From Weeksellaceae bacterium TAE3-ERU29 (GTDB lineage Bacteria; Bacteroidota; Bacteroidia; Flavobacteriales; Weeksellaceae): a stretch of 64,000 bases of DNA. The notes beneath the pieces were generated by a model. The model made no database searches, was not told where the DNA came from, and saw only the letters and a program-made list of their open reading frames with translations. The stretch lies in the NCBI GenBank assembly GCA_019218445.1, contig JAHUUM010000002.1:1-64000 (forward strand). Reading direction: 5' to 3'. Shown here one piece after another: positions 4,149 to 29,465 of this stretch. Each line of letters begins with the position of its first letter. Within the stretch, counting starts at the first letter, position 1. Made by a program: the position numbers and the translations under genes.

Positions 4149-5357
4149 CTAATTTAAATAATGAAACAGCATTGGCTCTCCTTGTGTTTTCATAATTGGT
4201 TCAGGATCTACTTTATTCATTTCCGGATTGAGGACATAAATTCCTTTTTTAGTTTCAGAAGTATTGGTTATGACTAACTTACCATTTTTATATTTTCCTA
4301 CCATAATAGAAAATCCATTAGATAATCCTACTCCTTCTATTGCTTTCATTTTCTGATTATAAATATCAAACTCTACCGCTCTGTTAGCCATTATTCCATC
4401 TTTTGCATAACCGGGCATATCTACATATCCGTAGGCTTTTCCATTTTTTGTATATAATATAGAAGTAATAAAAGAAGATGTTTCGGTATCACCTTCAATA
4501 GTAGCTCCCGTGATTGTCCAATGATAAGTAGGGTCAAACTCTGTCTCTCCCTTTTTAATTCTTAATATTCCGGCACTATGTCCCGGAATTCTTCCAAACC
4601 CACCTAAACAGGATATATAAATATCACCTTTTTCGTCCATAAATATAGAATTAGGGTCATACGGACGCGTTGCCATTGAATACCCTTTATAAGAAATCAT
4701 TTTTATTAATTTCTCTGTTTTGGTATCAATCAACGCAACATCAGCTTGGTTATAATCTTGTGGACTAAAAAAACCTCCTACCATTTGATTAAGTCCTACA
4801 TATAAAATATGATCTCTAATTAACATTATTGAAGTATCCGGATTTTTATCCTGAATTCCTAAGGAAGCTAAATCAATTTCTCCCGTTTTCTCCATAGTTG
4901 TAGGGTTAAAAATCATGATTTTTCCAAGTCCGGATAGGGATAAATAGGCTTTACTGTCAGAGACTTTTATCATATTACAAGCCGCTGACTGAGGAGGTAA
5001 TTTTAATGGTTTACTTTCTTGTAATTTATTATCCTGATAGATATATTTTTCCAATTTATTTTTAGTATCTCCTATAAAACTCGGATACACAAAAACCTCT
5101 TTCCCAATAACTGACGGGTAAGTTCCTCCATAAGGAATTTGAATAGCATCATCATTATTTACAGTTTGTGTACCTTCTTTCTCTTTTACCAATTTAAGAT
5201 AAGAAGAACCTGTCATTCCACCCGGGTTAGGTAGTGTAGTCGCTAAGATAATATCGCCACCACCACCTTTAACTAAGTTATTGTCATCATCTTTATCACA
5301 GCTATTAAATATAAGTAATAAAGCCGCTGAAGCCATTGTTAAAATTTTGTTTTTCAT
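4149..5357 (-). CDS. Surface-type beta-propeller lipoprotein (XusB/DUF4374-like), copy 1
   Basis: The N-terminus is a lipoprotein signal peptide with lipobox FNSC; the cysteine (about residue 20) is followed by DKDDDNN, which fits the Bacteroidota lipoprotein surface-export signal. The remaining ~380 residues consist of repeated beta-rich units (for example KAYLSLSGLGKIMIFNPTT, ILYVGLNQMVGG, DIYISCLGGFG), as expected of a propeller. It is encoded 39 bases after a TonB receptor. In Bacteroides, XusB is a surface propeller lipoprotein that captures siderophore for the receptor XusA; this gene has the same neighbourhood and shape. That role is inferred, not shown. A paralogue lies at 9357-10574. 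Confidence 0.7.
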   Translation of the reverse strand: MKNKILTMASAALLLIFNSCDKDDDNNLVKGGGGDIILATTLPNPGGMTGSSYLKLVKEKEGTQTVNNDDAIQIPYGGTYPSVIGKEVFVYPSFIGDTKNKLEKYIYQDNKLQESKPLKLPPQSAACNMIKVSDSKAYLSLSGLGKIMIFNPTTMEKTGEIDLASLGIQDKNPDTSIMLIRDHILYVGLNQMVGGFFSPQDYNQADVALIDTKTEKLIKMISYKGYSMATRPYDPNSIFMDEKGDIYISCLGGFGRIPGHSAGILRIKKGETEFDPTYHWTITGATIEGDTETSSFITSILYTKNGKAYGYVDMPGYAKDGIMANRAVEFDIYNQKMKAIEGVGLSNGFSIMVGKYKNGKLVITNTSETKKGIYVLNPEMNKVDPEPIMKTQGEPMLFHYLN

Positions 5358-5396
5358 TTGATTATCATTTTAATTATTAAACATTCTATTTTTAAT

Positions 5397-7727
5397 TTAT
5401 TTGAATACATATCGAATTCGCAATGAGTAATTTCTGCCCGGTAATGGTCGGTTAAATTCGGACATCATTTTAGTATCGGTTAAATTATTGATTCTACCAA
5501 TGATAAAATAGCGTCCGTTAGCGAAACTATGTTCAAATCCCGCATTCATTGAAAACGTCGTCGGAATTCTTCGCTCTTGAAATTTACTTTGTTCAAAATC
5601 ATATAAATATTCATTTACGAAAGAAGCATCAGCATAGATTCGAGTATTTTGCTTTTGTCCGCCAAACAAATTTTCTTTGTGAAACTCAGCCCCCGTATTT
5701 GCCATCAGCCAAGGAATGTTTGGCATTCGGCTACCTTTGGTTGAATTGGGAACAGATGAATTTGCCTCCGTTTCTCGGACATCTCGCAAATCTTGATATG
5801 TACCATTAGCATACGCATATAACCATGGAAAGACATCAGCTTTCACCTCTGCTTCTATTCCAAAGGTTCTCATTTTTCCAAAATTCTGATATTGTGATTG
5901 TAAATATCCGCCCGTAAAACGAATCATATTAGTAAGATACATATAATATGCACTAACTTCTAACTGTAGATTACTTTTGGATTTTCCTGTTCTATCATAT
6001 AAAAGTCCGAAATTAAAACTTGTATTTTCTTCAGGACCAAGATCTCCTGAAGGTGCAATCATATAACCATCTCCTAACAATTCACTCTCAGAGGGTAAAC
6101 GTATATCTTTAGCAAGTGACATTTTCGCCATAAAATCAGGCGTAAAACGATAGCGAAGTGCATTGCTAACTCCAAAATTATCTCTGGTCATAGCAATTGG
6201 TTGCGGTACGGAAATAGAAATGCTGGATAGCGTGGTATTCATATCATACCAATAATATTTTACATTAAACGAGTTTAGAAATTTATCATCTTTGGAACGA
6301 AAATCATAATTCAAGCCTAAAGTCCAACTCTTCATTTGATTTTTAAAATTAGTTGTATAACCAATCGTTTTATCTTTCAACTCGTCTTTTGGATTTCTCA
6401 GTGCAAATGAAAAAATCGAATTTAAATTGATAGAATGTTGTTTGTTTAAAAGATAATTTAAGTTCAATTTATGAAGAACGGTGTGTTTGGCATCGTAAGA
6501 GTCAGAAGCCCAACGTCCGATTTCTCCACCATATTTTGATACTGCAGGGTAAGTTGTTCCGTCCCAATTCGTTCTAAAAGGTGCTTTGTCAATAAATCGA
6601 TATTCCGTAAAAGCATAGGCTAAATTCCAATCGAAATCCAATCCTGCCAACAAAAAATCTTCTTTTTCCAATTTGTTAGACAAAATATATACGTTAGATT
6701 TGGTATGTGCCTCTTGGATATTGTATTCTATTCCTTGAATTTCCTGATAAATATCCATAAAAATGGGTTCAAGTTCTACCTTATCAAACCACCAATTTCG
6801 AGCTTTAAAACTTCCTCCCACAGCTAATTTCTTAAACTTATCGTGGTCTCTTTTAATGATTAAATCATTATCAAAAGGCGATTGCATTTTATAATTATTG
6901 TCAGAATAGGTGTAAAATCCTCCCACGCCCAACTCATAGTTTTGAGTATTCCGTTTGGCAACAGCAGAGGCTTTATGAGTGTTGAAACTGGCTGTTGTAT
7001 AATTGATGTCAAGATATTTCGGCGGATATTCACGGATAACAATATTTACTGCCCCACCAATTGCTGAACCTCCAAATTTGGCGGGGACAACCCCTTTATA
7101 AATTTCAATTCGGTCAATCATTTCTACGGGAATATCATTTATATCAATAAAATCCGAATTATCATTGAGTGGTGTTCCGTCAATAAAAAAACCGATGCGC
7201 TTTCCTTCCAATCCTCGAACAGAAATCCGTGAAGCACTTCCCACACCACCCGACGAGCGAATGGTTACACCGACAGTCCGTGCCAAAACATCTTTTACAT
7301 CGCTTACCGTTCCTTGTAGTTGTTGCATACTGATAACCGAAACAGGCATAGCTTGTTCCCTCAATTTACGTGCTTCACTTTTACCAACAACAGCGATTTC
7401 TGCCAAACTGATAGACTCCTCTTGCAAAGAGAAATTTAATTCTAAAGATTGATTGGCTTTAATATTTATTTTCTTGGTTTGTCCTTCATATCCCAAAAAA
7501 GAAACTTTCAAAACATACGTTCCTTCTGGAATATTTTTAAGGTTAAAATATCCATTCTTATCGGTAAAAGCTCCTTTTTGAGTTCCCTTCAATAATATAT
7601 CAACATTTTGCAAAGCCTCTCCCGTTTCTATATCAAATACCTTTCCCGACACCTCGCCAAAAGACTCTTGACCATATAAGTTATTTATAAACAAATAGAT
7701 AATACTAAGTAAAAAAAGTTTTTTCAT
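5397..7727 (-). CDS. TonB-dependent outer-membrane receptor, siderophore type, copy 1
   Basis: The protein has a signal peptide (residues 1-19), a carboxypeptidase-regulatory-like beta domain (about 24-105, with GEVSGKVFD and NIPEGTYVLKVSFLGYEG), a plug domain (about 115-230, with RVSVRGLEGKRIGFFIDG-like text and the motif VPAKFGGSAIGGAVNIV) and a C-terminal beta-barrel ending in RIRYVFK with a terminal aromatic residue. Length 776 suits ferric-siderophore or haem receptors rather than ~1000-residue SusC proteins. It is the first gene of an operon with the lipoprotein at 4149 and is divergent from an AraC regulator, so ligand-dependent activation is likely. The ligand is unknown. Confidence 0.88.
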   Translation of the reverse strand: MKKLFLLSIIYLFINNLYGQESFGEVSGKVFDIETGEALQNVDILLKGTQKGAFTDKNGYFNLKNIPEGTYVLKVSFLGYEGQTKKINIKANQSLELNFSLQEESISLAEIAVVGKSEARKLREQAMPVSVISMQQLQGTVSDVKDVLARTVGVTIRSSGGVGSASRISVRGLEGKRIGFFIDGTPLNDNSDFIDINDIPVEMIDRIEIYKGVVPAKFGGSAIGGAVNIVIREYPPKYLDINYTTASFNTHKASAVAKRNTQNYELGVGGFYTYSDNNYKMQSPFDNDLIIKRDHDKFKKLAVGGSFKARNWWFDKVELEPIFMDIYQEIQGIEYNIQEAHTKSNVYILSNKLEKEDFLLAGLDFDWNLAYAFTEYRFIDKAPFRTNWDGTTYPAVSKYGGEIGRWASDSYDAKHTVLHKLNLNYLLNKQHSINLNSIFSFALRNPKDELKDKTIGYTTNFKNQMKSWTLGLNYDFRSKDDKFLNSFNVKYYWYDMNTTLSSISISVPQPIAMTRDNFGVSNALRYRFTPDFMAKMSLAKDIRLPSESELLGDGYMIAPSGDLGPEENTSFNFGLLYDRTGKSKSNLQLEVSAYYMYLTNMIRFTGGYLQSQYQNFGKMRTFGIEAEVKADVFPWLYAYANGTYQDLRDVRETEANSSVPNSTKGSRMPNIPWLMANTGAEFHKENLFGGQKQNTRIYADASFVNEYLYDFEQSKFQERRIPTTFSMNAGFEHSFANGRYFIIGRINNLTDTKMMSEFNRPLPGRNYSLRIRYVFK

Positions 7728-7846
7728 AAAGATTAGATATATTTATTTGTGTATATTTGCTTTTATTTAGAACAAATATTTATAGACAACAAAGATAGTT
7801 TGAGTGTTTTACAGGTCTATTTAATCTAACGGACTAATTTTTTAAT
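7728..7846. promoter_or_regulatory. Divergent control region of receptor locus 1 with face-to-face promoters
   Basis: A plus-strand -7 box TATATTTG lies at 7752-7759 (for the AraC gene at 7847) and a minus-strand -7 box TATCTTTG at 7790-7797 (for the receptor at 7727). The two promoters point toward each other, so both leaders overlap. Between them is an AT-rich segment resembling the equivalent segment of locus 2 (12948-13062), a candidate AraC operator. Boxes are assigned by consensus only. Confidence 0.5.
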
Positions 7847-8839
7847 ATGGCGGACTTTTATAGTATAACAGAAAAGGATATTCAGGAAATGGCTATAGAT
7901 GTAAGGTCATTTTATGAGGGATTAAATACAGAAAAAACTAATTTATTAGATTACGGGAATAAGTTTGGAAAGTGTTCTATTTCTTCTCAACAAAAAGGAA
8001 ATATATTTGTTTCTAATTTTGAGGTAAATCTGAATAAACCAATAAGTATAAGTTCTGCAACACAACCGCTTATTGGAATGTACTTTAATAAAAAAGGACG
8101 TTCTTTTCAGAAGTTAAATATCAAGAAGAAAGAATATCAAAAGTTTGATAATCAGCATTGTGGATTTTATTTTATGAATGAGGGGCTGGTTGGGCAAAGT
8201 GTTTATGAAGAAAATTTACCTACTGAATTTATTTCTTTTCATTTTCCACCTGATTTTTTCAAAAAATTAGCTCAAATGTATCCCGATACTTTAGAAAGTA
8301 GTTTTAAAAGATTTGAAAATGGGGAAACTTTTTGCCTTACCGAACAAACTCACCCCATTACACACCAGATGCAACAAATTCTTTCCCAAATAGAGAATGC
8401 TAATCTATTGGGAAATAGTAGCATTATGTATTTGGAAGCTAAAGTTTTGGAATTATTGGCGTTGCAGTTTGAGTTTGTGAAAAACACAAATTCTCCACAG
8501 AAAAAAGAATGTATCAAAACGATTTCTGATAAAGAAAAAATCTATGAAGCTCGTTCTATTTTACTTTCTGATTTATCGAATACTCCAAGTTTACGAAAGC
8601 TTTCTCTTCAAGTTGGGATTAACGAGAAAAAACTGAAACAAGGTTTTAAAGAGGTTTTCGGAACAACGGTTTTCGGATATTTATATCAACACAAAATGTA
8701 CCTTGCCAAGCAATATCTTTTGGACTCGTCTTTACTTATCAACGAAATTGCTCTGCTTTGCGGATATGATTATGTATCCCATTTCTCAACGGCATTTAAA
8801 CGATTTTGGGGGTGTACGCCGGGGGAGATGAGAAGGTAA
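7847..8839 (+). CDS. AraC-family transcriptional regulator, copy 1 (PchR-like context)
   Basis: The C-terminal ~100 residues (about 230-330) form the two-helix-turn-helix AraC domain, with LRKLSLQVGINEKKLKQGFKE for the first and LLINEIALLCGYDYVSHFSTAFKRF for the second. The N-terminal ~220 residues are a likely ligand-sensing domain without a clear motif. The gene is divergent from a TonB receptor, which resembles PchR-type regulators activated by ferric siderophores; that is context inference. The last ~60 residues are identical to those of the regulator at 13063, whereas the N-terminal halves differ strongly. A terminator follows. Confidence 0.88.
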   Translation: MADFYSITEKDIQEMAIDVRSFYEGLNTEKTNLLDYGNKFGKCSISSQQKGNIFVSNFEVNLNKPISISSATQPLIGMYFNKKGRSFQKLNIKKKEYQKFDNQHCGFYFMNEGLVGQSVYEENLPTEFISFHFPPDFFKKLAQMYPDTLESSFKRFENGETFCLTEQTHPITHQMQQILSQIENANLLGNSSIMYLEAKVLELLALQFEFVKNTNSPQKKECIKTISDKEKIYEARSILLSDLSNTPSLRKLSLQVGINEKKLKQGFKEVFGTTVFGYLYQHKMYLAKQYLLDSSLLINEIALLCGYDYVSHFSTAFKRFWGCTPGEMRR

Positions 8840-8877
8840 AATCAACTTATTTCGTTCTAAAAGCAAATAGTTGAAAT
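8761..8877 (+). repeat. AraC-tail repeat, copy A
   Basis: This segment, the last ~79 bases of the AraC gene plus 38 bases of 3' flank, recurs almost exactly at 14959-15073 and, up to the stop codon, at 13978-14055. It lies in its native context here. Confidence 0.85.
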
Positions 8878-8885
8878 GAATTTTT

Positions 8886-8919
8886 GAAAAATCCCTTTGA
8901 GAAACTAAAGGGATTTTTG
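8886..8919. terminator. Bidirectional terminator between AraC copy 1 and the VOC gene
   Basis: A 12-base-pair perfect stem AAAAATCCCTTT / AAAGGGATTTTT with an 8-base loop has T-runs on both strands and lies between two convergent genes. Confidence 0.75.
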
Positions 8920-8945
8920 TTTAATCATTTAATTAAAGATAATTC

Positions 8946-9350
8946 TCAACCTTCATAATTCAAATACCAAGGAATTCCAAATTTATCTACTAAACTAACT
9001 AATTTGGTTTCAATACTGGTTTCAAAGAAATCAAAAGTCACTTTACCTTCTTCCTTAAGTTTCTCAAAAACACATTTTTGTTCATCCAAATTATCAAAAT
9101 TTACCGTTACACCAATACCACCTCCAATGATTATATCTTCTTTTTCAAAACCGTCCGATATATAAAAATGAATGTTTTCAGCTTTAAATTCTGCATGAGC
9201 AATCTTATTTTCGTATTCTTTAGAAACTTTATATTTAGTTTCAGAAAATCTTTGTAAAAATGTGATTTCTCCACCAAAACAATTCTTATAAAAATTTAAA
9301 GCCTCTTCAGTTCGTCCTTTTATTGTAAAATAAACTATACTTGTTTTCAT
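8946..9350 (-). CDS. VOC-superfamily protein (PhnB/glyoxalase-like)
   Basis: At 134 residues it has the size of PhnB-type VOC proteins, with the paired beta-alpha-beta-beta-beta pattern seen in TEEALNFYKNCFGGEI near residues 14-29 and the end DKFGIPWYLNYEG. Such proteins often bind a divalent metal and act on small electrophilic or antibiotic substrates, but the substrate here cannot be told from sequence. It starts 6 bases downstream of the lipoprotein gene stop at 9357, so it is the last gene of the second receptor operon. Locus 1 has no counterpart. Confidence 0.8.
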   Translation of the reverse strand: MKTSIVYFTIKGRTEEALNFYKNCFGGEITFLQRFSETKYKVSKEYENKIAHAEFKAENIHFYISDGFEKEDIIIGGGIGVTVNFDNLDEQKCVFEKLKEEGKVTFDFFETSIETKLVSLVDKFGIPWYLNYEG

Positions 9351-9356
9351 CTTTAA

Positions 9357-10574
9357 TTATTTAACTTCTGTAAAAAACAACGGATAACCATCAACATTAA
9401 TCACAGCTTTGTCCGACATTTTTCCGGTAGTGGGGTCATACACAAAAAATCCATTGCTGGTTTGAGTCTTCAAGCCAAAAACTACTTTATCTTTATACAA
9501 ACCAACTGCTGTCGCGAAATTGGTGCTTTTTGCAGTTCCTAAACGTTTGATAGTTTTAGCTTTTAGGTCTATCTCTACGGGGAAAATAGTTTCGTCTTCA
9601 AACCAATTAGGGCGAGGTGTAGAATAATATGCAGGAATATTCACAGTAGCATATACTTTTCCTCCACCTGCGTAGGCAATTCTTACTACATAATTGGCTT
9701 TGTTAGCTTCACCTTCGATAGGTGTAGAAGTAATATCAAATTGATAGTTTGAGTCAAAATCTTCCTCTCCATTTTTAATTCTTAAGAATCCTGCTTTATG
9801 ACCTAAAAATCCAAATCCTGAAATACAATTGATATAAATGTCCTTATTTTCATCCATAAAAATAGAATGAATATCTGTTTCCGGAACAGTAGGCATTGAC
9901 ATTCCCGCAGAACTTTCTGTAATCATTTTTTTAACTTCATCAGTCTTAGTGTCAATTAATAAAACATCTACTTTTGCTCGTGTAGGATCAGGTACGTGGT
10001 CTGCTCCCACTATTTGATTTAAAGCCACAAATAAAGTATTATCACGTACAATCATCTGACAAGGATCCGGATTTCCATCTCCTACTCCATAGGAGCTAAT
10101 ATCAATATTCTTAATATGTTTCAATGTATTTTTATCATAAATTCCAATTTTTCCGAGATAAGAATAGGATACATATATTTTATTATCTTTTACTGCTAAA
10201 CTATTTGCTCCTGCACTTGCAGGAAGTTGTGTTTTAGCTTTTTCAACCAATTCGCCATTCTCATAACCATACTTTGTAAAAATATTTTCTGGTGCTACCC
10301 AACCCGGTAATGAATATATATCATCTCCAATTACATAGTTTGGGTCAAAAGTTGGTAAAGCTCGTTTATTGTTATAGCTTTGAGGCTCTATTCCCTCAAT
10401 TAACTGCATATAAGCAGCTCCCATAGAACCATCGTTATTAGCTAAAGAAGTTCCTATAAGAACATCTTTTTTATTAGAATCCGGCATATCAGGTTTGTCA
10501 TCTGAACTACACGAAGCCATCAGAAGGATAGCTATAAAAGCAAGTGCTTGCCATTTTTTAATTGTTTTTTTCAT
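9357..10574 (-). CDS. Surface-type beta-propeller lipoprotein (XusB/DUF4374-like), copy 2
   Basis: A lipoprotein signal with lipobox MASC is followed by SSDDKPD, an acidic stretch typical of surface-exposed Bacteroidota lipoproteins. The body is repeated beta blades (KIYVSYSYLGKIGIYDKNT, LFVALNQIVGA, DIYINCISGFGFLGHKAG) that line up with those of the paralogue at 4149-5357; shared positions include the phrase SIFMDE-K-DIYI. It lies 30 bases after its TonB receptor. By analogy with XusAB it should bind a siderophore-like ligand at the cell surface; no ligand can be named. Confidence 0.7.
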   Translation of the reverse strand: MKKTIKKWQALAFIAILLMASCSSDDKPDMPDSNKKDVLIGTSLANNDGSMGAAYMQLIEGIEPQSYNNKRALPTFDPNYVIGDDIYSLPGWVAPENIFTKYGYENGELVEKAKTQLPASAGANSLAVKDNKIYVSYSYLGKIGIYDKNTLKHIKNIDISSYGVGDGNPDPCQMIVRDNTLFVALNQIVGADHVPDPTRAKVDVLLIDTKTDEVKKMITESSAGMSMPTVPETDIHSIFMDENKDIYINCISGFGFLGHKAGFLRIKNGEEDFDSNYQFDITSTPIEGEANKANYVVRIAYAGGGKVYATVNIPAYYSTPRPNWFEDETIFPVEIDLKAKTIKRLGTAKSTNFATAVGLYKDKVVFGLKTQTSNGFFVYDPTTGKMSDKAVINVDGYPLFFTEVK

Positions 10575-10604
10575 TTTTATAAAATTTAAGATTATACATT
10601 ATTT

Positions 10605-12947
10605 TTATTTTAATAAATACCTGATTTTTAAGGCATAATTTCTCCCCGGTAACGGACGGTTAAATTCGGATATCACTTTGGCATCCGTTATATTGTTGGC
10701 TTGAAATCCTATGGTAAAACGTTGATTCTTAAAGCTGTGTTCTAAACCTATATCGGTTGTAAAAGCTCGGGGAATTCTCCGTTGTTGATAAATACTTTGT
10801 TCAAAATCATAAAAATATTCTTCTACAAATGATGAATTCACGAACATTCGGCTGTTTTGTTCGTGTCCTCCAAATAAGTTTTCTCGGTGTAATTCCAATC
10901 CCGCATTCACGAAAAAATACGGAATATTCGGAATTCTGTCGCCTTTAGTAGGATTCGGTACAGAGCTGTTTTCTTGGTATTCGCGAGCATCTCGCAAATC
11001 TTGATAGGTAGCATTGGTATACAGATATAAAAAGGAAGTTGCATCCCATTTAATTTCCAGTTCTGCTCCGAGTGTTTGCATTTCACCAAAATTCACATAA
11101 TTGGATTGTAAAGGTCCGCCCACAAAACGAATCATATCTTTTAAGTGCATATAAAATCCATTCATTTCTACACTAAAACGTCTGTTTTTGCCTATTTTTT
11201 TGTCATATAGTAATCCTATATTTACACTTTTGTTTCGTTCAGGCGTAAGCGTTCCTGAAGGAGCAATTAGAAATCCATCACCGATAAGTTCCGTTTCGGA
11301 AGGCAGACGCACATCATACGAAAAAGAAGTTTTTAACAGAAAATCAGGCGTAAAACGATAACGAATGGCATTACTAATTCCCCAATCGTTTTTAACATTG
11401 TGAATATCCTCCACTTTTTTAACATCAAATATATCTGCTAATTTCGTTTTGATATTGTAATAATAATACTTAGCGGTCAGGGAGTTCAATAACTTATTTT
11501 CAAAAAGACGAATTTCATAATTTAACCCTGCTACATTACTGTTCATTCGGCTGTCAAAATTTGTTTTATGACCAATTGCTTTTTCTTTTAATGGATCTGT
11601 CGGAGAGGAAGATACATTTCTATAAGTAAGATTTAAATTTAAAGAACTCCAATCATTTAATAAATAATTGAGATTTAATCGGCTGATTAACGAATGTGTC
11701 GGAGTATTAGCATCGTTTGGTTGAGACCCTAAAATTTCGCCACCGTATCTGGTAATAGGAGGAGCCATTATACTTCCGTCCCAATTATAACGGTGCATTG
11801 CTTTGTTTTGGAATTTAAAAACAGAATATAAATAGCCTATACTTATATCAAAATCTAACCCCGTGGTTAAAAAATCTTCTTTTTCTAATTTATTATTAAT
11901 GAAGAAACCCTCAGAAAACCTCTCAGCTTCTTGTATATGATACTCTATACCTTGTAACTCTTTCTTGGTTTTTACATAAACTGACTCAAACTCAACCTTA
12001 TCAAACCACCATTTATTTTTTACTTTTAGTCCTCCTCCAATGGTTTTTTTCTCAAATTTATCGTGATTTCTTCTTACAAATTTGCCTTTTTCAAGAGGTA
12101 ATTCCATTTCATAATTGTTATCGGACGAAGTGTACGCCCCTCCTATTCCTATTTCGTATCCATTTTTATTGGTTTTTAGTACTGTGCTGGTTTTTTGAGT
12201 GTTAAAAGAAGCTATTTGATAACTCAAATCAACATAAAATGGTGGATATTCCTTTAGAACAACATTCACTGCTCCACCAACGGACGAACCTCCCAATTTA
12301 GCAGGAACAATACCTTTATAAATTTCAATCCGGTCTATCATATCCACAGGAATATCATTCAAATCAACAAAATCTGAATTGTCATTTAATGGAATTTCAT
12401 CAACAAAAATCCCTATCCGTTTTCCCTCTAAACCTCGTAATGAAATCCGTGAAGAACTTCCCACTCCTCCCGAAACTCTCATTTTTACGCCTACAGTACG
12501 TGACAAAACATCATTCACATCACTAACTGCCCCATTAATTTCCTTCATACTAATGACCGAAATAGGCATCGCTTGCTCTCTGAGTTTTCGCGATTTACTT
12601 TTACCTTCGACAGCCACTTCCGAAAGGTTAATCTTCCCTTCTTTTAATGAAAAAGAAAGTTCAATATTTTTGTTAGATTGTATTTGAATCCTTTGTGCTT
12701 GACTTTCATAACCAAGAAATGAAACCTCAACAATATAATTTCCTGTGGGAATACTGGTGATTTTAAAATTTCCGTTGGCATCAGTAGTAGTTCCTTTTGC
12801 AGTATTTTTCAGTAGAATATCTACACCTTGTAAAGGCATATTTGTAGCGTTTTCTGTAACCTTTCCTGATATTGAACCCGAATAGGATTGAGCATTTAAG
12901 TTGCTAAAAATTAGAAATATAAAAATAAACAAATATGTATGTTTCAT
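10605..12947 (-). CDS. TonB-dependent outer-membrane receptor, siderophore type, copy 2
   Basis: The architecture matches the receptor at 5397: signal peptide (1-19), carboxypeptidase-regulatory-like domain (about 25-105), plug (about 115-230; LRGLEGKRIGIFVDE, VPAKLGGSSVGGAVNVV) and a barrel ending in LKIRYLLK. The plug is far more conserved between the two than the barrel, suggesting paralogues adapted to different ligands. It heads an operon with the propeller lipoprotein and the VOC gene and is divergent from the second AraC regulator. The start at 12947 gives a good signal peptide (MKHTYLFIFIFLIF). Confidence 0.88.
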   Translation of the reverse strand: MKHTYLFIFIFLIFSNLNAQSYSGSISGKVTENATNMPLQGVDILLKNTAKGTTTDANGNFKITSIPTGNYIVEVSFLGYESQAQRIQIQSNKNIELSFSLKEGKINLSEVAVEGKSKSRKLREQAMPISVISMKEINGAVSDVNDVLSRTVGVKMRVSGGVGSSSRISLRGLEGKRIGIFVDEIPLNDNSDFVDLNDIPVDMIDRIEIYKGIVPAKLGGSSVGGAVNVVLKEYPPFYVDLSYQIASFNTQKTSTVLKTNKNGYEIGIGGAYTSSDNNYEMELPLEKGKFVRRNHDKFEKKTIGGGLKVKNKWWFDKVEFESVYVKTKKELQGIEYHIQEAERFSEGFFINNKLEKEDFLTTGLDFDISIGYLYSVFKFQNKAMHRYNWDGSIMAPPITRYGGEILGSQPNDANTPTHSLISRLNLNYLLNDWSSLNLNLTYRNVSSSPTDPLKEKAIGHKTNFDSRMNSNVAGLNYEIRLFENKLLNSLTAKYYYYNIKTKLADIFDVKKVEDIHNVKNDWGISNAIRYRFTPDFLLKTSFSYDVRLPSETELIGDGFLIAPSGTLTPERNKSVNIGLLYDKKIGKNRRFSVEMNGFYMHLKDMIRFVGGPLQSNYVNFGEMQTLGAELEIKWDATSFLYLYTNATYQDLRDAREYQENSSVPNPTKGDRIPNIPYFFVNAGLELHRENLFGGHEQNSRMFVNSSFVEEYFYDFEQSIYQQRRIPRAFTTDIGLEHSFKNQRFTIGFQANNITDAKVISEFNRPLPGRNYALKIRYLLK

Positions 12948-13062
12948 TACCGACTTTATCTATAATTTATTACCTTTGTTTGAAATTAGAATAAATCTTT
13001 ATAAGGCAAAATTAGTTACATTTGGTTATGATCTGTTTAATCTAAGGAAGAAATTTTTTAAT
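12948..13062. promoter_or_regulatory. Divergent control region of receptor locus 2 with face-to-face promoters
   Basis: The plus-strand -7 box TACCTTTG is at 12971-12978 and the minus-strand box TAATTTTG at 13007-13014, giving nearly the same spacing and facing orientation as in locus 1. The last ~35 bases before the AraC start are also similar in both loci (TTTAATCTAA, then TTTTTTAATATGG). Confidence 0.5.
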
Positions 13063-14055
13063 ATGGGGAAGTTTTATAACATACAAGAAGAGGATTTAAA
13101 AGAGCTGACAATAGATACTCGGTCAATTGTTCAATCTTATAAAGATAATACAAAAGTTGAGCAGAAATACGGAAAAGGCTTGGGGAATCTTAATATTACA
13201 ACGGAGAAAAAAGGCAATATTTATACTTTTGAGGCAGATATGAACTTCAATAAAGATATAAAACTATTAGAAGAATCTTTTCCCTTAGTGGCTTTATGCT
13301 TTAATTCAGGAAAATCATTTTATCAGAATTTGAATGTTAAAGATGAGGTACATCACGAGTTTAAAAACAATCATTGGGGACTTTTCTTTATAAATAATGA
13401 TCAAAAAGGTGAAGGGGTATATAGAAAAAATGCTCCGGTTAATTTCTTGTCTTATAATTTCTTACCTGATTTTTTCACTCAATTGGTAAACTTATACCCC
13501 GAAATGTTAGAATCGTCTTATAAGAGATTTCAAAAAGGAGAATCTTTTACTTTGACCGATGAGACAAAACCAATTAATAATGAAATTAGTTATGTTTTAG
13601 CACAATTACAACATGCTCATTTAATGGGAAATAGCAGTGCAATGTACACCGAAGCAAAAATTATAGAATTGTTGGCGTTACAATTTGATTTTGTATCGCA
13701 GAAGTCTCTCAAAAAAACAGAAAGCTCGCTTAAAACCAATAGTGATTATCATAAAATCCACGAGGCTCGTCATATTTTGCTTTCGGATATTGGTAATCCA
13801 CCAAGTATTAAAGAATTATCGTTGCAAGTCGGGATCAACGAAGATAAACTCAAAAAAGGTTTTAAAGAGGTTTTCGGCACAACGGTTTTCGGATATTTAT
13901 ATCAACACAAAATGTACCTTGCCAAGCAATATTTATTAGATTCTTCTTTACTTATCAATGAAATTGCCTTGCTTTGTGGATATGATTATGTATCCCATTT
14001 CTCAACGGCTTTTAAGCGATTTTGGGGGTGTACGCCGGGGGAGATGAGAGGGTGA
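13063..14055 (+). CDS. AraC-family transcriptional regulator, copy 2
   Basis: I start the gene at the ATG at 13063, giving 330 residues (MGKFYNIQEED), the same length as its paralogue at 7847 (MADFYSITEKD). The open frame extends upstream to 12901 but that part overlaps the divergent receptor gene and its promoter, so it is not coding. The C-terminal AraC domain (two helix-turn-helix units) is identical in protein sequence over the last ~60 residues to copy 1, while the N-terminal sensing half is only loosely similar. It probably controls the receptor operon at 12947. Its end is part of a repeat recurring at 14959. Confidence 0.88.
   Translation: MGKFYNIQEEDLKELTIDTRSIVQSYKDNTKVEQKYGKGLGNLNITTEKKGNIYTFEADMNFNKDIKLLEESFPLVALCFNSGKSFYQNLNVKDEVHHEFKNNHWGLFFINNDQKGEGVYRKNAPVNFLSYNFLPDFFTQLVNLYPEMLESSYKRFQKGESFTLTDETKPINNEISYVLAQLQHAHLMGNSSAMYTEAKIIELLALQFDFVSQKSLKKTESSLKTNSDYHKIHEARHILLSDIGNPPSIKELSLQVGINEDKLKKGFKEVFGTTVFGYLYQHKMYLAKQYLLDSSLLINEIALLCGYDYVSHFSTAFKRFWGCTPGEMRG
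13978..14055 (+). repeat. AraC-tail repeat, copy B
   Basis: The final 78 bases of AraC copy 2 match copies A and C with about three substitutions. After the stop codon the similarity ends abruptly, unlike A and C, which continue to match each other for about 38 more bases. Confidence 0.8.
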
Positions 14056-14123
14056 AGTTCTTTGAAAATAAAAATATTATGAGTATATTAGCCTACTTAT
14101 TTTTGATATATAAATTTAAAATT

Positions 14124-14357
14124 ATGCCTAGAAAATCAAATCACGTCGTGCCTTCAAAAGGTATAGGTTGGTCAGTTAAAAAATCCGGAGCTTCACGAGC
14201 TTCAAGAAATTTTACAACTAAGGAACAAGCAGTTAAATACGCTACTCAATTGAGTAAAAATGAAAGAACTGAATTATATATTCATAAGAGTAATGGTATG
14301 ATTCAAAACAAGAATTCATATGGAAATGATCCTTATCCTCCAAAAGATAAAAAATAA
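14124..14357 (+). CDS. DUF2188-family small protein
   Basis: I start at the ATG at 14124 (MPRKSNHVVPSKGIGWSVKK), 77 residues; the upstream frame extension runs into the AraC gene end. The pattern VVPSKGIGWSVKKSGASRAS, an alanine/lysine helix, and a C-terminal G-x-IQ-KNSYGNDPYPPKD is characteristic of DUF2188. Family members are small soluble proteins of unknown function, often next to genes of mobile or defence-type regions. Its stop overlaps the start of the next gene by one base (TAATG), implying translational coupling. The pair lies between two copies of the AraC-tail repeat, suggesting acquisition as a unit. Confidence 0.82.
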   Translation: MPRKSNHVVPSKGIGWSVKKSGASRASRNFTTKEQAVKYATQLSKNERTELYIHKSNGMIQNKNSYGNDPYPPKDKK

Positions 14358-14967
14358 TGTCATTTGAAAAGAATATTTTTATAAACTGTCCTTTTGATCA
14401 AAAATTTATAAACGACTTATTAAAACCTATGCTATATGTTTAATAAGAAATGATTTAAACCCAAGACTTGCTATTGAAGTTTCAGATTCAGGGCAATTCC
14501 GTTTAAAAAAAATAACAGAACTGATAAAGAGTTGTAAATTTAGTATTCATGATTTATCTAAAGTAAAATCTATTAAAGAAGATGAATATGCAAGAATGAA
14601 TATGCCTTTTGAATTAGGAATTGATTGGGGAATTAAGGAGGTACTTAAATCTGAAAAACAATTTTTAATATTAGAAGCTGAGAAATATGATTACATGAAA
14701 GCTTTGTCTGATATCAATGGATTAGATGTTAAAGTTCATGAGAATAATATTGAAACCTTATTTGAGTGTCTTTATGAATGGCTGAGCGAAACTCTAAAGA
14801 TTAGGAAGCAAGACCCACCTCTAAAATTATACTATGATTTTATAGACTATAATGCAAGTTTATTTGAAGAGAAATTATTAGAATTTAAATCTAAAAAAAT
14901 AGCCATTAACTATATAGAAAAGATAAGTATCCCGGAATATATAGCTGAAGTTAAAGAACGGATATGA
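14357..14967 (+). pseudogene. Frameshifted nucleotide-binding/TIR-like fold protein, partner of DUF2188
   Basis: Reading from ATG 14357 gives MSFEKNIFINCPFDQKFIND, then a stop near 14441. The family pattern resumes in the next frame with LIRNDLNPRLAIEVSDSG, then KSCKFSIHDLSK, then MNMPFELGIDWGIK. One missing T in the TTT at about 14438-14440 would restore one ~203-residue product. The core (FINCPFD, PRLAIE, SIHDLS, NMPFELG) is a widespread uncharacterised family that I believe has a flavodoxin/TIR-like fold; that is recollection, not a search. The last codons (ERI, stop) come from the AraC-tail repeat, so the natural C-terminus may be lost. It could be a true pseudogene or a sequencing error in a homopolymer. 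Confidence 0.7.
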
Positions 14968-15073
14968 TTATGTATCCCATTTCTCAACGGCATTTAAACG
15001 ATTTTGGGGGTGTACGCCGGGGGAGATGAGAAGGTGAAATCAACTTCTCGTTCTAAAAGCAAATAGTTGAAAT
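14959..15073 (+). repeat. AraC-tail repeat, copy C (orphan gene fragment)
   Basis: This is a detached fragment of an AraC gene end plus 3' flank. It matches copy A (8761-8877) almost perfectly, including ~38 bases after the stop, with one short indel and few substitutions. With copy B it forms direct repeats around the DUF2188 cassette. It has no start and is not expressed as a regulator. Confidence 0.85.
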
Positions 15074-15191
15074 AAATTATTCCCTTTTTTATTACTTTTT
15101 AGGACAAGACTGGTTTTCATATAAATTTATTTTCTATAAATTAGCCTTTATTTTCTGCCTTTTTTACAAAAAACAATTATATCAAAAATAA

Positions 15192-28403: not shown

Positions 28404-29465
28404 TTATATTTTAAATTCTATTTTTTCTAAATCAGAAAAATATTTTCTTCCCTCATTTATCTCACTTTTAATAAAATAAATTAAATCATCATACTCCATC
28501 TCCCAATAAGGAGTAGGCATTTTTTTTGACAGAGATACATATCCTTTTTGCTTAGGCATATTTAATTTATTATAATTACTATTCTCTTTAATCTTAGAAA
28601 CAAAAGGAATAAAACATTCTATCTCTTTTTTCTTTGATTTATCATAATTTACTGACGCTATAGCAAACTTAATATTGTCTGCCTGTAATTGTAAAAATAC
28701 ATTAAACTTCTTTTTCTGAACATTAATTTCCCCCAATATAATATCAATTAAAGCCACTCCTCTCGTTTCATTTATAACACAATGAATACTCTCATCTATA
28801 CTATTTCTTATTTTGATAAGTATATTTTTCTGAAAAATTGTCTCTAATTGATTTATACCTATAAATTTCTCTTCCTCAGTTGGATATTCATAAGTTATTT
28901 TATCTATCTTTTTTTTACTTCCATTTAAAAATACAGTAGAATATTTTTGATAATTCTGAGAAAAATCCTTAAATATATTAATTAAGTGTTCTAAAAAACT
29001 CAAATACTCACAAAAAATAATCGCATCTATTTCTTTAGTCAATTTTATTTCTTGAAAAACACTTAATAAGTCTTCATAAGTTACATTTTGCCAATTAATT
29101 TCACTTGGAGGTTCATTTATTAATGTCAGGTAAAAATACTTTTTATCAATATTTTGAAAATCTTTTTCAGCTATTTCCCTATATTTATTAAGCTGTCCTA
29201 AATACTGACTTGATTTAAGTTTATTTTCCAATATAATTACACAACTATCTGTTTTTATAATTATATCTATATTTTTATATTCCGTTATAACGTATTCTAT
29301 ATGAGAACATTCAATATTAAATAATTTTTTAATTAAATTTATTTTATCTATATTCTGAACTTCTTTAAAATTATCTGAGAAAAACCAAGAAATAATTTGA
29401 GAATGTATTCTTTCTTGGTTTGCTATACTTAAAAACTCAAAAAAAGATTGTCTATCATTACTCAT
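28404..29465 (-). CDS. PD-(D/E)XK nuclease-superfamily protein
   Basis: The N-terminal region (about 20-110) contains HSQIISWFF, DIIIKTDSCVIILENKLKSS with the ExK of the nuclease core, and QLNKYREIAEKDF with the conserved Q-x2-KY helix; these match the PD-(D/E)XK_4 type. The remaining ~220 residues are unassigned. The gene starts inside the end of the threonine dehydrogenase gene (8-base overlap, ATGAGTAA) and ends 3 bases before the AmgK-like gene, so it is embedded in a metabolic operon. Relatives are often found in defence or mobile regions. Its role here is unknown. Confidence 0.78.
   Translation of the reverse strand: MSNDRQSFFEFLSIANQERIHSQIISWFFSDNFKEVQNIDKINLIKKLFNIECSHIEYVITEYKNIDIIIKTDSCVIILENKLKSSQYLGQLNKYREIAEKDFQNIDKKYFYLTLINEPPSEINWQNVTYEDLLSVFQEIKLTKEIDAIIFCEYLSFLEHLINIFKDFSQNYQKYSTVFLNGSKKKIDKITYEYPTEEEKFIGINQLETIFQKNILIKIRNSIDESIHCVINETRGVALIDIILGEINVQKKKFNVFLQLQADNIKFAIASVNYDKSKKKEIECFIPFVSKIKENSNYNKLNMPKQKGYVSLSKKMPTPYWEMEYDDLIYFIKSEINEGRKYFSDLEKIEFKI

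Follow-up and report, generated by a model that had tools for sequence, protein, structure and literature searches.

How does a small module with no transposase or integrase gene beside it come to stand directly behind an intact regulatory gene, with a copy of that gene's end on its far side? The question is posed by a locus in Weeksellaceae bacterium TAE3-ERU29 (Bacteroidota, Flavobacteriales), whose AT-rich draft genome comprises 2.37 Mb in 52 contigs. The stretch analysed, henceforth the window (the 64,000 nucleotides at positions 1 to 64,000 of contig JAHUUM010000002.1, assembly GCA_019218445.1), carries at 4149-14055 two tandem units, each made up of a lipoprotein-like gene, a TonB-dependent receptor and an AraC regulator, and the module follows the regulator of the second unit (Table 1). 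A preliminary description had placed a DUF2188 gene and a frameshifted second gene between direct repeats of the AraC tail, with no transposase or integrase, and its inventory was accurate: these two genes, and only these, lie between the repeats, and the window ORF list holds no transposase or integrase ORF between or beside them. It ascribed their arrival to homologous or site-directed recombination at the AraC tail, and the two fare differently below.

Table 1. Features of the AraC2 locus and its inserted module (positions in the window; nt, nucleotides; aa, amino acids)
Feature	Position	Strand	Remarks
AraC1, AraC-family regulator	7847-8839	+	PF12833/PF00165; the orphan tail is similar to its 8761-8882 (final 79 nt plus 3' flank)
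AraC2, AraC-family regulator, intact	13063-14055	+	PF12833/PF00165; its end carries the left repeat
Left direct repeat (end of AraC2), 79 nt	13978-14056	+	96.2% identical to 14960-15038
Inserted cassette, 0.9 kb	14057-14958	+	26.8% G+C (whole window, 31.6%)
DUF2188 protein, 77 aa, intact	14124-14357	+	PF09954, E 5e-21; stop shares 1 nt with the start codon of the second gene
Second gene, predicted TIR/nucleoside-deoxyribosyltransferase-fold protein	14357-14967	+	Frameshift near 14437; second frame (14440-14967) runs to the native C-terminus
Overlap of 9 nt, CGGATATGA	14959-14967	+	Second cassette gene ends here (two codons and stop), and the orphan tail begins
Orphan AraC tail (right repeat, 79 nt) with about 40 nt of AraC1-like 3' flank	14959-15080	+	

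The two genes of the module belong together well beyond this genome. A scan of 84,980 species genomes yielded 555 confirmed relatives of the second gene, and among the best 80 of these a DUF2188 ORF lies just upstream in 60 loci, from many phyla, which marks the pair as a conserved two-gene operon rather than chance neighbours; a search of the open-access literature at the level of listings returned no description of such an operon. The window DUF2188 protein also matches phrog_3220 (E 5.6e-30) and the PADLOC candidate PDC-S16 (E 1.7e-32), a model that consists of DUF2188 alone, whereas in the window the gene forms an operon with the protein of TIR/nucleoside-deoxyribosyltransferase (NDT) fold, a partner that none of the PADLOC models matches. 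Seven relatives of the second gene among the matches listed are from Bacteroidota (57-69% identical). In four of seven close homologues (L019-L022) the protein ends in ERI or ERV followed by the stop, just as in the window, so that the module here is complete at its right end. Its identity as a conserved operon and its complete ends are direct readings of the data.

The module would appear to be foreign to this lineage, since its G+C content is lower than that of the window, the second gene is absent from the 319 other family genomes, and DUF2188 has no match in any of the three congeneric species. The preliminary description had named the pair and orphan tail at this position in all distant relatives as the pattern that would speak against its reading; with the second gene in 0 of 319 family genomes and DUF2188 in 0 of 3 congeners, that pattern was not seen. 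The one AraC relative found elsewhere in the family (G035, 47% identity) is followed by an ordinary gene, without the module. No counterpart of the window locus was found in genomes of the genus, in which some 50 to 400 kb separate prfC from the S9 peptidase relative. As for carriers, phage records held no relative of the second gene; IMG/VR held ten, none of them with internal direct repeats (40 nt, 85%), and a 20-nt word of the AraC tail is absent from the viral contigs searched. Elsewhere in the window, a lone, putative nuclease-like ORF (28404-29465) in an AT-rich patch (26.8% G+C around 28-30 kb) is flanked by metabolic genes and may be another insert.

What the module does can be approached through the predicted structures of its proteins. 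A model of an intact relative of the second gene (L021; pLDDT 90.5) aligns with DNPH1 (8rps, Z 13.5 over 125 residues, 2.7 Å), the AbTir TIR domain (7uxu, Z 13.4, 131 residues, 3.0 Å) and the SPARTA TIR domain (8ifl, Z 13.0, 138 residues, 3.4 Å), with a best Foldseek E of 1.7e-3, and the predicted fold is accordingly that common to TIR domains and nucleoside deoxyribosyltransferases. While the fold is thus shared, the sequence link is weak, PF10137 (CAP12-PCTIR_TIR, the CAP12/Pycsar TIR domain) being matched in 6 of 62 family members with a best E of 9.6e-4. Glu86 of L021, within NMPFELG, is invariant among the 62 members and, by topology, would correspond to the catalytic Glu of these folds, which opens the helix that follows the third strand. 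The DUF2188 model (pLDDT 81.9) has no convincing fold match, the best being AcrIF5 at Z 5.5. A defence role is plausible, given the modelled fold and a DUF2188 gene in another genome (L110 in G089, 6613-9815) that adjoins a CBASS cyclase (E 1e-77) and a 4TM effector (E 8e-55), and the module would probably consist of an effector of anti-phage or stress type and its small partner. Defence genes were also sought around the module: PADLOC families number 47 among its 109 nearest neighbours, including, among the 25 listed, Thoeris, IetA, LmuA, CBASS E2 and MzaA, and 26 among 68 far ones, which is no clear enrichment, since several PADLOC families match one and the same protein.

The evidence on how the module arrived lies in the repeats. 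As the preliminary description had noted, the AraC tail recurs as an orphan behind the cassette: 76 of 79 nt are identical to the end of AraC2, the 3 mismatches leaving identical blocks of 32 and 33 nt. This is the only pair of direct repeats of at least 40 nt and at least 85% identity less than 3 kb apart in the window, and it is far beyond chance; excision of the cassette through the 79-nt repeats is possible, to judge from their sequence. A repeat search and blastn place three copies of the tail, at 8761-8848, 13977-14064 and 14959-15046, and a 120-nt orphan query finds only these three places, and no fourth copy, in the organism's own genome. Relative to AraC1 the orphan has a single mismatch within the 79 nt (TGA instead of TAA); of the four bases that tell the copies apart, the one in the stop codon (TGA) agrees with AraC2 and the remaining three with AraC1, a mixture that makes the orphan a fresh copy of neither. 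Past the stop, alignment bears out the earlier observation that the orphan resembles the 3' flank of AraC1 for about 40 nt, with small indels, whereas the present 3' flank of AraC2 does not resemble it. The repeats, with their extent and differences, and the overlap at the right joint are likewise read directly from the data.

The likeness of the two AraC genes is itself uneven. Over most of their length the alignment has 30-45 identical columns per 60; between about 13849 and the stop codon this rises to 53-57, and the last 198 nt hold 14 differences, 10 of them at third codon positions. We read this stretch of some 200 nt as an older conversion or exchange tract. The three mismatches between the repeats, for their part, would not separate a donor tail from a recipient tail.

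With fair confidence, we take the insert to have come in by homology-facilitated entry, with a homologous left side, a short-overlap joint on the right, and the orphan as the displaced tail and flank of AraC2. The two joints have the corresponding form: on one side an anchor common to insert and target is present in the 79-nt tail (96.2%), and on the other there is little homology, an overlap of at most 9 nt, with the stop of the second gene inside the first 9 nt of the orphan, which makes the right joint a micro-overlap. The foreign module would first have been joined behind an AraC gene elsewhere, and the fragment taken up would have brought the end of that gene along. On the left, this fragment would have recombined by homology with AraC2; on the right, either the module end would have joined the resident AraC2 at CGGATATGA, that is, by homology-facilitated illegitimate recombination, or the fragment would have circularised at CGGATATGA and entered by a single crossover. 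Either course would give AraC2 with its tail, then the module, then the old tail and old flank, so that AraC2 would be rebuilt intact and its former 3' end, tail and flank together, displaced downstream as the orphan. Most likely, then, the orphan is the original 3' end of AraC2, and its AraC1-like flank would follow if the duplication or conversion that gave rise to the two genes had left that old end with the same flank as AraC1. Later, the second gene would have decayed by frameshift and, being broken, probably leaves the module inactive as it stands. The order of these events and the route of uptake are reconstructed, and natural transformation is a plausible route. Riemerella is presumably a near relative of the window organism. 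In the accessible parts of the reports concerned, natural competence is described for Riemerella anatipestifer and R. columbina.

The account has precedents in the literature. In the accessible text of two studies of homology-facilitated illegitimate recombination or single crossover of circularised fragments (PMC3240628, PMC2884548), as in the window, homology is one-sided and the other joint short or without homology, the foreign insert is about 1 kb, and part of the homologous locus is duplicated; the window event differs in being reconstructed from one genome rather than observed. Where the substrate was conjugated, linearised and homologous at one end, 56 of 60 clones had the homologous locus duplicated, by 109-950 bp in the 14 clones sequenced, duplications explained in the accessible part of that report by single crossover of circular molecules (PMC3240628). 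The same text has true one-sided illegitimate events as very rare in E. coli, which counts against our main reading. Homology-facilitated illegitimate recombination has also been proposed, in the part of the article available, for the displaced immunity genes of the Vibrio cholerae T6SS orphan immunity arrays (PMC5361080), where again a module stands behind a conserved anchor with the old 3' part displaced downstream; in the window, by contrast, the anchor is the end of an AraC gene and what is displaced is a 79-nt tail with its flank, not a functional gene. The mechanism of insertion is already known, and the window locus is a further case.

Comparison with related modules bears both on this reading and on its rivals. 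In Brumimicrobium glaciale (L079) the gene ahead of the module encodes a GTPase, and 85 nt of it (5421-5505) recur at 6519-6603 with 96.5% identity, 2 nt behind the module; the copy stops 69 nt before the GTPase gene end and is joined at its rear to a VapC-like gene cut short. This architecture is similar to that of the window, a piece of the preceding gene recurring behind the module. The GTPase has no match in 366 genomes of the order, which shows little. Long flanking repeats are absent around all seven of the closest module relatives among the matches listed, and tail repeats as a general trait of the module were rejected on that ground and on the counts of flanking matches given below. 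This counts against our main reading to the extent that tail duplication is not the module's usual way of insertion, and makes the tail copy one route among several.

These comparisons also weigh on the possibility that a recombinase acting in trans inserted a circular cassette with the AraC tail as its attachment site. Islands do insert at the 3' ends of genes. Such an event would restore the gene end and displace the tail to the far side between direct repeats of about 80 nt, as is found here, and the architecture in B. glaciale is similar. Yet, unlike an integrase-borne island at a gene's 3' end, the cassette has no integrase near it; the repeat in B. glaciale, the sole similar case, is unrelated to that of the window, their longest shared word being 6 nt, so that no attachment core is common to them and a dedicated or common integrase or recombinase is unsupported; and both the lack of long repeats around the seven close relatives and the early end of the GTPase repeat point the same way. 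We hold this possibility to be unlikely, and of the routes named in the preliminary description the site-directed one finds no support, whereas entry at the AraC tail with direct repeats left behind is still the preferred reading, and one-sided homologous recombination agrees with it. A transposon is not indicated either: in addition to the lack of a transposase ORF, terminal inverted repeats were not found, the longest inverted match between the flanks being 7 nt, as in mismatched pairs. Homologous recombination of a sloppy kind, rather than a transposon, is most likely.

Improbable in similar degree is the proposal that a third AraC gene once stood in the array, lost its front when the module moved in, and survives as the orphan. 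The locus is indeed a tandem array of lipoprotein, TonB receptor and AraC units, and the orphan sides with AraC1 at three of the four distinguishing bases and has a flank of AraC1 type. This would require, however, the loss of a whole third receptor unit exactly to the overlap with the module's stop, and the window holds no other trace of such a unit. A purely illegitimate insertion behind AraC2, with templated filler at the far junction drawn from a short stretch of the AraC tail, has a slim chance: it would suit B. glaciale, where unrelated sequence (the module on one side, the shortened VapC-like gene on the other) abuts the repeat at either end, but the orphan continues into an AraC-type flank that the present AraC2 lacks and so cannot have supplied. 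An assembly artefact, conceivable in a draft of 52 contigs, is hardly credible, as the copies are not identical, each sits in a coherent flanking context of its own, and the module has the same gene order as in many other genomes.

To what extent repeats accompany such modules in general was assessed among the 60 with a DUF2188 match in the best 80 of 555. Only two of them, the window and B. glaciale, have flanks that match directly over at least 13 nt, against 0.028% of 3,540 mismatched flank pairs. Shorter matches of at least 9 nt are suggestive only (direct in 18 of 60, inverted in 10 of 60, and about 10% in mismatched pairs, which mix base compositions). Bracketing repeats (at least 40 nt, 85%) surround 3 of 58 modules (L050, L067 and L079, the window left out; L090 and L098, with a larger gap or the second-gene start motif missing, being set aside), a level reached by random placement in 11 of 20,000 trials, with the criterion set after the first cases were known and the three repeats of different kinds. 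In a Bacteroidia MAG (L050) the module lies between interspersed repeats of about 250 nt. In Cyanobium sp. FGCU6 (L067) attC-like repeats stand at 5-63, 1134-1225 and 4757-4848 around the module; they fold as hairpins (z -2.7 and -3.1), and this module looks like an integron cassette. The window repeats, in contrast, are AraC coding sequence, right flank included, and the folding of 15037-15080 is little better than that of shuffles (z -1.28). Two further loci may be mentioned for their own sake. In a Segetibacter MAG (L020, 4780-7400) the module splits one minus-strand reading frame, putatively AsmA-like, and its ends carry a 10-nt inverted match, GTTAGCGGCA/TGCCGCTAAC. In the window's own family, a contig of 4762 bp (L109; G052 contig 14) bears a cassette array with repeats of about 190 nt, in which DUF2188 has a different partner and a putative YoeB-like toxin pair and a putative acetyltransferase also occur.

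The variety of these settings prompts a broader suggestion, tentative and on balance doubtful: that DUF2188 and TIR/NDT-fold pairs are 0.9-kb defence-like cassettes without a recombinase that travel by borrowed repeats of any kind, be these a copied tail (the window, B. glaciale), attC (Cyanobium) or interspersed repeats (the Bacteroidia MAG). Were this so, the tail would serve to rebuild the host gene and would leave direct repeats for later loss or onward transfer. The operon itself is a candidate defence pair open to testing, and the locus offers a readable fossil of how tiny defence-like modules may enter a genome without mobile-element genes, behind a gene whose end is rebuilt in the process.
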